The notes under the pieces are model-generated. The model saw nothing but the letters and a program-made list of their open reading frames with translations. It did not search any database and was not told the origin of the DNA. From Thermosediminibacter litoriperuensis (lineage in GTDB: Bacteria > Bacillota > Thermosediminibacteria > Thermosediminibacterales > Thermosediminibacteraceae): a stretch of DNA of 64,000 nt. The position numbers were made by a program, and so were the translations under genes. Positions 27,611-30,306 of this stretch are shown piece after piece (within the stretch, counting starts at the first letter, position 1; the number at the start of each line of letters is the position of its first letter). Location of the stretch: NCBI RefSeq assembly GCF_008124715.1, contig NZ_VNHO01000011.1:1-64000 (forward strand), written 5' to 3'.

Positions 27611-27805
27611 TCAGTTTCCCTTCATTATCATCCTTTCGATTTTCGCCTCCTCCATCACTATTTTTAGCGGCGTCTCCTGCCTTGCATAAACCAGGTTTCT
27701 TGTATTATAGGCTACTATGGCTCTCGATCCCGCGTAAAAGCTGAAAAGAGACGCTACAGTCAGCAAAACTACCAGCACTTTTTTGATCGACTCCATAAGG
27801 CTCAC
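27611..27805 (-). CDS. Small single-pass membrane protein, unknown
   Basis: This 64-residue frame lies 7 bp after sigG. It has a basic start, one hydrophobic helix (about 10-30, VLVVLLTVASLFSFYAGS) and a charged C-terminus with IVMEEAKIERMIMKGN. A signal-anchor topology is likely. I do not recognise a family. The tight spacing to sigG and the terminator right after it suggest that it is translated from the same message. Whether it is developmentally expressed is inference. Confidence 0.6.
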   Translation of the reverse strand: MSLMESIKKVLVVLLTVASLFSFYAGSRAIVAYNTRNLVYARQETPLKIVMEEAKIERMIMKGN

Positions 27806-27812
27806 CTCGAAC

Positions 27813-28586
27813 TTAGATGTATTTTTTCAGATGTTTTAACGCGGCTTTTTCCAGTCTAGAAACCTGAGCCTGCGAAATCCCGATCTCCTGAGCAACCTCC
27901 ATTTGAGTCTTCCCTTCAAAAAACCTCAGCGTCAGTATCATCTTCTCCCTTTCGTTGAGTTTTTGCATAGCTTCTTTTATTGAAATGCTCCTGAGCCAGT
28001 TCTCGTCGTTATTTTTATCGTCGCTGATCTGATCCATAACAAAAATCGGGTCTCCGCCGTCATGGTAGATAGGCTCAAATAGCGATATAGGTTCCTGAAT
28101 GGCATCTAAGGCCATTACAATTTCTTCGGCGGGAATATTCATTTCCCTGGCTATTTCGTCGATTGAAGGCTCCCTCGAATTCTTATTTACCAGCGAATCT
28201 CTGATCTGCAAAGCTTTATAGGCTATATCTCGTAAAGATCTGCTGACTCTTATGGGATTATTGTCCCTCAGATATCTTCTGATCTCGCCTATAATCATAG
28301 GCACCGCATAGGTTGAAAACTTGACGTTTTGATTTAAATCAAAATTATCTATAGCCTTCATCAGGCCGATGCATCCCACCTGAAAAAGATCGTCGACATA
28401 CTCGCCCCTGTTGTTAAACCTCTGTATTACGCTGAGAACCAGTCTCAGATTTCCGTGGATAAGTTTTTCCCTGGCTTCTTTGTCTCCCTGCTTGACTTTT
28501 AGAAACAGTTCCTTCATTTTGCTGTTGGACAGCACCGGAAGTTTTGAGGTGTTAACACCGCAGATCTCTACTTTGTTCAAATTCAT
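27813..28586 (-). CDS. sigG: RNA polymerase sporulation sigma factor SigG
   Basis: Late forespore sigma factor. The 257 residues carry the N-terminal NKVEICGVNTSKLPVL, region 2 (HGNLRLVLSVIQRFNNRGEYVDDLFQVGCIGLMKAIDNF), region 3 and the region 4 helix-turn-helix (TQMEVAQEIGISQAQVSRLEKAALKHL). The order spoIIGA-sigE-sigG is the conserved one. The RBS AGGGGG is seven bases upstream of the ATG. It can pair with a sequence 40 nt further up (see the regulatory entry), suggesting control of translation. Confidence 0.97.
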   Translation of the reverse strand: MNLNKVEICGVNTSKLPVLSNSKMKELFLKVKQGDKEAREKLIHGNLRLVLSVIQRFNNRGEYVDDLFQVGCIGLMKAIDNFDLNQNVKFSTYAVPMIIGEIRRYLRDNNPIRVSRSLRDIAYKALQIRDSLVNKNSREPSIDEIAREMNIPAEEIVMALDAIQEPISLFEPIYHDGGDPIFVMDQISDDKNNDENWLRSISIKEAMQKLNEREKMILTLRFFEGKTQMEVAQEIGISQAQVSRLEKAALKHLKKYI

Positions 28587-28591
28587 AAAAT

Positions 28592-28640
28592 TTCCCCCTG
28601 TCTTTCCAGTACCTCATTTAAATTTTTGCCACAGGGGGAA
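28592..28640 (-). promoter_or_regulatory. RBS-sequestering hairpin in read-through sigG mRNA
   Basis: On the minus strand TTCCCCCTGT (28640-28631) is perfectly complementary over 10 nt to ACAGGGGGAA (28601-28592), which contains the sigG Shine-Dalgarno sequence; the loop is 29 nt. The upstream arm lies within the spacer of the sigma-F-like promoter, so it would be present only in transcripts coming from sigE. The pairing is seen directly; the function is inference. Confidence 0.75.
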
Positions 28641-28650
28641 GTTTTTATTC
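28621..28650 (-). promoter_or_regulatory. Sigma-F-type promoter of sigG
   Basis: A -10-like GGCAAAAATT (28621-28630) agrees fully with the sigma-F pattern GGnRAnAMTW. GAATA (28646-28650), 15 bp upstream, matches four of five positions of GYWTA. It lies between sigE and sigG, as known in Bacillus. The predicted start is near 28614. Confidence 0.7.
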
Positions 28651-28662
28651 GCTTTTTTAAAA

Positions 28663-29382
28663 TTACATCATTCTTACTATTTCCTTTCTCAGCCTCTTTA
28701 TAATTCTCTTTTCAAGCCTGGAAATGTAAGACTGAGAAATCCCCAGAAGTTCGGCTACTTCCTTCTGAGTCTTTTCTTTTCCATCGTTCAGGCCGAATCT
28801 GAGCTCCATAATGCACCTTTCTCTTTTTGACAGGCGTTTCATCGCCGCATCCAGAAGTTCTTTCTCCACCTCTTCTTCTATGCATTTATAAATCATATCA
28901 CTATCGGTGCCCAGAATATCCGAGAGCAGAAGTTCGTTCCCATCCCAGTCTATATTCAAGGGCTCGTCGAAAGATACTTCCACGCGATTCCTGTTGTTCC
29001 TCCTGAGATACATCAGTATCTCGTTTTCGATACATCTTGAAGCATAGGTGGCAAGTTTGATCTTTTTATGGGGATCAAAGGTATTAATCGCTTTTATAAG
29101 TCCGATAGTACCAATAGATATAAGGTCTTCAATACCGGCTCCAGTGTTTTCAAATTTGCGCGCGATGTAGACTACCAACCGCAAATTCCGCTCTATAAGA
29201 ACATTTTTTACCCCACTGTCTCCCATTTCCAGTTTGCCCAACAACATGGCTTCTTCTTCACTGGAAAGCGGGGGCGGTAAAGTCTCGCTACCGCCTATAT
29301 AGTATATAACTGTTTTTTTCCACCTTCCCAGTCTTTGCCGGATGTACAAAATTAAAATTTTTAAATTTAATTTTTTAAACAT
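28663..29382 (-). CDS. sigE: RNA polymerase sporulation sigma factor SigE (pro-form)
   Basis: Early mother-cell sigma factor. The 239 residues include an N-terminal hydrophobic pro-sequence (about 1-28, [17 protein letters not shown]) that SpoIIGA removes, and region 2 ([39 protein letters not shown]). Region 4 contains [27 protein letters not shown]. It is preceded by spoIIGA (24 bp) and followed by sigG. Confidence 0.97.
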
Positions 29383-29406: not shown

Positions 29407-30306
29407 TTATCCGATTAAAAGTTCCGGATTCAATAAAGCCCTGTAAGTGCCCTGCGGCGACAGGACCTTGTGGTAAATCCCCAGCACCGCGTTTTTTATC
29501 TCATAAACTTTGTTGTCAAAATTGATTATAACTCTATCAGGTTTAAAACCCACCATCAAACCCTTGTTCTTTCCGATCGAGCTAAACGGAATAATTCTAA
29601 TCCTTGCTGCCCAGTAGGAGTTGGAGACCGCTCTTGTTATATCCTCAAGATTTTCTCCCGGTTCTTTCATCATCAACGTCCTTATTTCTTGAGGAAAAAA
29701 ATCCTCTAATACTGAAAATTCTACTATTATGACGGGATAATTGGAAATTGGGTCCCGCAGGTCGTTGCCTGTATCAATCAGAGCCTTTATTTTGAACTGG
29801 CGTTCGCCGAATAAAATCGTCATCGGGACGATAAATGAATCCCGTGACAGTATCCTGTAAATCAGCGGCCACATAAATTTGAAAAAAACAAACAAAAACG
29901 CAGAAGAAACGAGTAATATCCACCATGGTACTGAAATATTATTTACTAGTAGGCTCCCGGTAAACGCTCTTTCGGCGTTAATTAAGTAAAATAAAGCAAA
30001 AGCGCCGCCCCCGACCATAAAAGAAACAAAATAAAAGAAGCCTAGGGCTTTGATAAACTCAGAAAAACTTAGAGGATAAAAGGCTATGAGCACCATCAAA
30101 ATCGATACGATTATCTTGCCTGGAATCGTTTGTAACAACGCGCCGGTGGGAAAAAACACCTCCAGGAGAAACAGATTGCCTAAGAGGGCACCTGCTACGA
30201 ACCTTAGATTCCCAGCATTCAGTTTCAGTATTAATTTTACCAGCCAGAGTATTGTAAAATTCATGAGAAAATTTATTATAAACACCACGTCAAAGTAAAT
30301 TACCAT
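29407..30306 (-). CDS. spoIIGA: Sigma-E processing peptidase SpoIIGA
   Basis: Membrane aspartic protease that cleaves the pro-sequence of SigE. The 299 residues start MVIYFDVVFIINFLMNFT. Five hydrophobic helices fill about 1-150, and the soluble protease domain has the active-site motif ALIDTGNDLRDP with aspartate at about 178. GGAGG six bases before the ATG at 30306 selects this start over an upstream one at 30327. Confidence 0.95.
   Translation of the reverse strand: MVIYFDVVFIINFLMNFTILWLVKLILKLNAGNLRFVAGALLGNLFLLEVFFPTGALLQTIPGKIIVSILMVLIAFYPLSFSEFIKALGFFYFVSFMVGGGAFALFYLINAERAFTGSLLVNNISVPWWILLVSSAFLFVFFKFMWPLIYRILSRDSFIVPMTILFGERQFKIKALIDTGNDLRDPISNYPVIIVEFSVLEDFFPQEIRTLMMKEPGENLEDITRAVSNSYWAARIRIIPFSSIGKNKGLMVGFKPDRVIINFDNKVYEIKNAVLGIYHKVLSPQGTYRALLNPELLIG

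Follow-up and report, generated by a model that had tools for sequence, protein, structure and literature searches.

A Predicted Mask for the Ribosome Binding Site of sigG, Located in the Spacer of the sigG Promoter

Gene Order and Features of the sigG Region

The window, meaning the whole stretch of 64,000 nucleotides that was analyzed, carries ftsA, ftsZ, spoIIGA, sigE and sigG in that order on the minus strand. The first two names are putative and come from the translations; the identities of SpoIIGA, SigE and SigG come from NCBIfam equivalog models, all above cut-off. On that strand sigG comes immediately after spoIIGA-sigE, and a terminator scan found no terminator in the 76-nt gap between sigE and sigG. 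Nor is there an Rfam match above the gathering score at the sigG leader, the window giving only RNase P and two tRNAs. Directly after sigG comes a small minus-strand open reading frame (27611-27796, ATG at 27796) of 61 amino acids with a hydrophobic N-terminal stretch. The features of the region are as follows.

29407..30306, minus strand: spoIIGA, encoding the sigma-E processing peptidase and opening an operon with possible read-through into sigG (TIGR02854, 239 bits, cut-off 209.6; start codon from sequence)
28663..29382, minus strand: sigE (TIGR02835 / NF006158, above cut-off)
28665-28663, minus strand: TAA stop codon of sigE (from sequence)
28646..28650, minus strand: GAATA, -35-like element of a sigma-F/G-type sigG promoter (from sequence)
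28631..28645, minus strand: 15-bp promoter spacer AAAACTTCCCCCTGT (from sequence; covariation in the order)
28640-28631, minus strand: candidate masking arm (arm 1) TTCCCCCTGT, within the spacer (exact complement of 28601-28592)
28621..28630, minus strand: -10-like element GGCAAAAATT (from sequence; conserved in the order)
28610..28618, minus strand: region where the sigma-F/G transcript is predicted to start (from the -10 position)
28592..28601, minus strand: candidate masked arm (arm 2) ACAGGGGGAA, which holds the sigG Shine-Dalgarno (from sequence and predicted fold)
28586, minus strand: ATG start codon of sigG (from sequence)
27813..28586, minus strand: sigG (TIGR02850, 510 bits, cut-off 457)

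The sequence-only reading of this DNA had pointed to a perfect 10-bp complementarity between TTCCCCCTGT (28640-28631) and ACAGGGGGAA (28601-28592), the latter including the sigG Shine-Dalgarno, and had noted that the first arm takes up the greater part of the 15-bp spacer in a sigma-F-type promoter (GAATA, 15 bp, GGCAAAAATT). Both observations, with all their coordinates, are verified in the sequence. Past a single C.A mismatch (28641/28591), four A-U pairs (28645-28642 with 28590-28587) extend the helix, which thus has 10 uninterrupted pairs, or 14 in total with one mismatch. The GNATA-N15-GGNAANANT layout of the promoter is found upstream of nearly all the sigG genes surveyed.

Arm 1 begins 22 nt past the stop codon of sigE, a distance at which a ribosome terminating on sigE would probably no longer keep the arm open. 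It ends immediately before the -10 element, and therefore the mask would be confined to RNA starting upstream of the sigG promoter. A transcript from the sigma-F site, with its start placed downstream of the -10 element, would lack the first arm wherever its precise 5' end falls, as had been claimed.

Chance Complementarity and Predicted Folding

When the upstream part of the sigE-sigG gap is shuffled, a 10-bp Watson-Crick helix with the ribosome binding site (RBS) region arises in 3 of 20,000 trials. The complementarity of the arms is beyond chance. Of the 50 gene-like starts compared in the window, that of sigG is second for such pairing (-20.0 kcal/mol, against a median of -9.6). First comes the start of a homoserine-kinase-like reading frame, where GC-rich sequence within the preceding gene (about 8344-8266, minus strand) pairs with the start region at -21 kcal/mol, probably incidentally.

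The read-through RNA folds with a z-score of -2.1, equaled by 2 of 200 shuffles, and the Shine-Dalgarno sits in the arm helix in the predicted fold. The RNA starting at about 28614, which is the leader made from the sigG promoter (PsigG), has no C-run in its sequence and folds no better than its shuffles (z of -0.56). The predicted cost of opening the RBS at 37 C is 15.1 kcal/mol in the read-through RNA and 4.2 in the PsigG RNA, and the long and short RNAs are predicted to fold differently, in agreement with the earlier claim. The cost hardly moves for transcript starts anywhere from 28618 to 28610, and inclusion of longer upstream sequence lowers the prediction for the read-through RNA to 10.4 kcal/mol. 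At 68 C, the costs are predicted to be 9.9 and 0.7 kcal/mol; since the gap remains at that temperature, the difference would persist at the growth temperature of a thermophile, which the names of the relatives suggest this organism to be.

Conservation and Covariation in the Thermosediminibacterales

In the collection, the best named neighbor of the window is a Thermosediminibacterales MAG (L031), and the order of the window is taken to be this one. We found 19 sigG loci in the order, from two families and about 10 genera. In all 19, the spacer is complementary to the RBS of its own gene, with energies from -15.5 to -25.9 kcal/mol. The arms in the window's family are CUUCCCCCUGU against ACAGGGGGAA. 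A large part of the second family carries CCUCCCCC or CCUCUCCC facing GGGGGAGG; in one genus, the arms are CUCCUCCU and AGGAGGAG. Among the 21 other genomes in the order, G015, G019 and G021 gave no SigG match at the strict threshold; one of the three is 99% complete, so sporulation genes may have been lost there.

Compensatory changes in relatives had been named as a check on the pairing, and the two arms do change together through the order. In a pair table anchored on the helix rather than on a plain alignment, two-sided changes occur at five helix positions: U-A/C-G/G-U at spacer position 6, U-A/C-G at 7, C-G/U-A at 9 and 12, and G-C/C-G at 14. A plain MAFFT alignment shows weak covariation, with a score that 25 of 500 shuffles reach, because the 3' arm of some rows is shifted by one base. 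Spacers pair better with their own RBS than with re-dealt ones (-20.1 versus -18.4 kcal/mol, p about 1e-4 by a permutation that ignores relatedness). Within the window's own family, the C-run hardly varies.

Wider Survey of sigG Upstream Regions

We collected 284 sigG upstream regions, forming 169 clusters at 84% identity, and scored 15-base windows at fixed offsets from the -10 element for pairing with their own RBS relative to their own shuffles. In the order and in Bacillus, the complementarity signal is located at the spacer. Across the 147 clusters outside those two groups, complementarity to the own RBS also peaks in the promoter spacer (Wilcoxon p about 2e-7), the mean z being -0.80 and -0.91 for windows starting at -15 and -8 versus -0.09 further upstream. 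At these two positions, the own RBS exceeds other RBSs with p of 0.027 and 0.0046. Spacers paired with an RBS not their own also score below shuffles, and part of the pairing is generic, as any pyrimidine run facing a purine-rich Shine-Dalgarno will contribute.

Three clear single cases have unrelated sequences: Thermoanaerobacter L040 (AUCCUGCC/GGCAGGAU), Carboxydocella L064 (GGCUCCAUUCC/GGGGUGGAGCC, an 11-bp spacer/RBS helix) and L277. At L064 1072-1201, the Carboxydocella sigG follows an MFS-type transporter gene rather than sigE, and a mask there, if real, would guard against a different neighbor. A different arrangement is seen in Paenibacillus and similar genomes (L092, L098, L100-L102, L175, L177), where the -10 element GGAGATAAT is complementary to a UCUCC in the leader that can itself pair with the GGGAG of the RBS. 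In read-through RNA of this type, the pairing could be switched the other way.

Masks and Terminators in the sigE-sigG Gap

Many of the sigE-sigG gaps that have no mask carry an intrinsic terminator, including those of L019, L021 and L025, three nearest outgroups within the class of the window. By cluster, 18 masks occur without a terminator and 4 with one, while the unmasked clusters divide 40 without and 50 with (p 0.0018); by the criteria of the survey, those 40 have neither device. We set this simple 2x2 test aside. About 10 of the mask clusters belong to the window's own order and 3 to Bacillus, and with each of these groups counted once, the tally of about 7:4 versus 40:50 is not convincing. 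More weight is given, with caution, to tests that use no threshold or that correct for the tree.

Spacer/RBS pairing is weaker in the presence of a terminator, with a slope of 2.8 +/- 0.9 kcal/mol (t 3.1, lambda 0.74) after correction for a tree based on only 330 nt of sigG. This calculation used only sequence from the -35 on; a version that took in 120 nt upstream was dropped, since the terminator is then itself a competitor for the pairing. Among sigE-adjacent clusters outside the order and Bacillus, pairing is likewise weaker with a terminator (p about 0.03). Gap length is a confounder of any such comparison between mask and terminator. Taken as suggestive, these patterns point to masks and terminators that tend to exclude each other and may be interchangeable guards.

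Proposed Mechanism and Alternatives

The spoIIG operon upstream of sigG is switched on before the cell divides. We propose that RNA running on from spoIIGA-sigE would contain the promoter spacer, which would pair with the Shine-Dalgarno and block initiation. RNA made by sigma-F, and later by sigma-G, would begin downstream of arm 1, and for that reason its ribosome site would be open. With the read-through RNA masked and the PsigG RNA open, SigG would be made only once sigma-F is active, despite the absence of a terminator between sigE and sigG. Read-through in clostridia is made plausible by the report that, in C. difficile, the spoIIGA promoter drives transcription of sigG in addition to the forespore promoter of sigG itself (PMC7438776). 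We regard a read-through-specific mask of the sigG RBS as the best explanation and a probable one, in which the read-through RNA and its lowered translation are the inferred parts.

The hairpin might instead be a transcription attenuator, with an A-tract, a GC stem and a U-tract stopping polymerase arriving from sigE, such that the protection would act at RNA synthesis. An AAAA-stem-TTTT layout is indeed present in family f1, and many other genomes have terminators at the same place. However, the loop is 29 nt, the T-run is only 3-4 with the start codon directly after it, and this run shrinks to TTT or less in family f2. The terminator scan gave no match at the hairpin, which with its 29-nt loop and T4 differs from the compact GC stem, short loop and T-run of an intrinsic terminator. 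We therefore think an attenuator unlikely.

If anything a little less likely is that the C-run serves the promoter, through sigma-F/G binding or spacer flexibility, and matches the Shine-Dalgarno incidentally. The C-run does fall entirely inside the spacer, and part of the complementarity is generic. Yet none of the 34 other matches to the promoter pattern in the genome, most of them not proven promoters, has such a C-run spacer. The two arms change together, and in Thermoanaerobacter, Carboxydocella and Bacillus, spacers of unrelated sequence are complementary to the RBS of their own gene.

At the DNA level, a binding site for a regulator of the sigG promoter would give the same picture of correlated changes in an inverted repeat, but the second arm always includes the Shine-Dalgarno, the distance between arms varies by 1-2 nt between genomes, and the arm sequence is completely different between clades, making a regulator site very improbable. 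Least credible of all is complementarity by chance and without function, for which a helix of similar energy once elsewhere among the 50 window genes could be cited, against the shuffle test, the conservation in 19/19 loci of the order and the covariation.

With a mask of the RBS in the promoter spacer, translation of a message would be governed by the promoter from which it was transcribed. Through the comparative data, what was predicted for one species becomes a pattern that can be tested in many spore-formers, and the data suggest that the terminator and the mask are two different ways of dealing with the problem of read-through. We offer only tentatively, as a possibility short of an expectation, that endospore formers have repeatedly evolved an anti-RBS arm in the spacer of the sigG promoter as a general safety catch, which can be exchanged for a sigE-sigG terminator, the mask tending to occur in genomes that have no such terminator.

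Relation to the Hairpins of Bacillus subtilis

Our survey includes a B. subtilis-group locus, L202; over 260 residues, its SigG shows no difference from a query that we take to be B. subtilis SigG. Its promoter reads GCATA-TTTTTCCCACCCAA-GGAGATACT with an RBS region of GGGAGGGAAAAAAGTG, and the spacer TTTTTCCCACCCAA pairs with GGGAGGGAAAAA at the RBS at -16.0 kcal/mol. We infer that this is the hairpin proposed in 1988 by Masuda et al. The suggestion that a promoter spacer serving as the blocking arm may be a variant therefore falls away, as the B. subtilis-group sigG has the same layout.

PMC5942855 (Fig. 1D and Discussion) restates the 1988 proposal, which is a hairpin of 20+ bp masking the B. 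subtilis sigG RBS in read-through transcripts and unable to form in PsigG transcripts; its status there is proposed or predicted. The same paper describes SigG as harmful if made at the wrong time and the read-through transcript as not required for sigG expression. Dispensable read-through RNA fits a mask, without proving one. It also describes a separate small 5-bp RBS hairpin in the B. subtilis PsigG leader, which damps translation 2-4-fold and is less common in Clostridia. The sequence-only reading had mentioned a leader hairpin limiting sigG translation in B. subtilis. A read-through-specific hairpin has indeed been in the literature since 1988, but the one mentioned was probably the small one. 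Although the small hairpin also masks the sigG RBS, it forms in the PsigG transcript itself, whereas the PsigG leader of the window has no such fold: we found no anti-RBS arm between +1 and the RBS there (z -0.56, no C-run).

The large hairpin and the window share the gene order, the RBS as 3' arm, and a 5' arm that lies upstream of the sigG start site, would be absent from PsigG RNA and, judging by L202, falls in the promoter spacer. They differ in arm sequence and in dimensions: in B. subtilis the helix has 20+ pairs, the spacer 14 bp and the gap 139 nt, with a GTG start, and in the window there are 10 uninterrupted pairs plus 4, a 15-bp spacer, an ATG start and a 76-nt gap. The window thus falls short of 20+ pairs, a length that we treat as describing the B. 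subtilis case and not as defining the kind. A read-through hairpin of Bacillus likewise places its upstream arm in the spacer of the promoter. The predicted mask in the window is therefore a clostridial case of a type already known as a proposal, and the idea itself is not new. What the sequence comparisons add to the B. subtilis proposal is evolutionary support, along with a weaker form of the same pairing in many other spore-formers.
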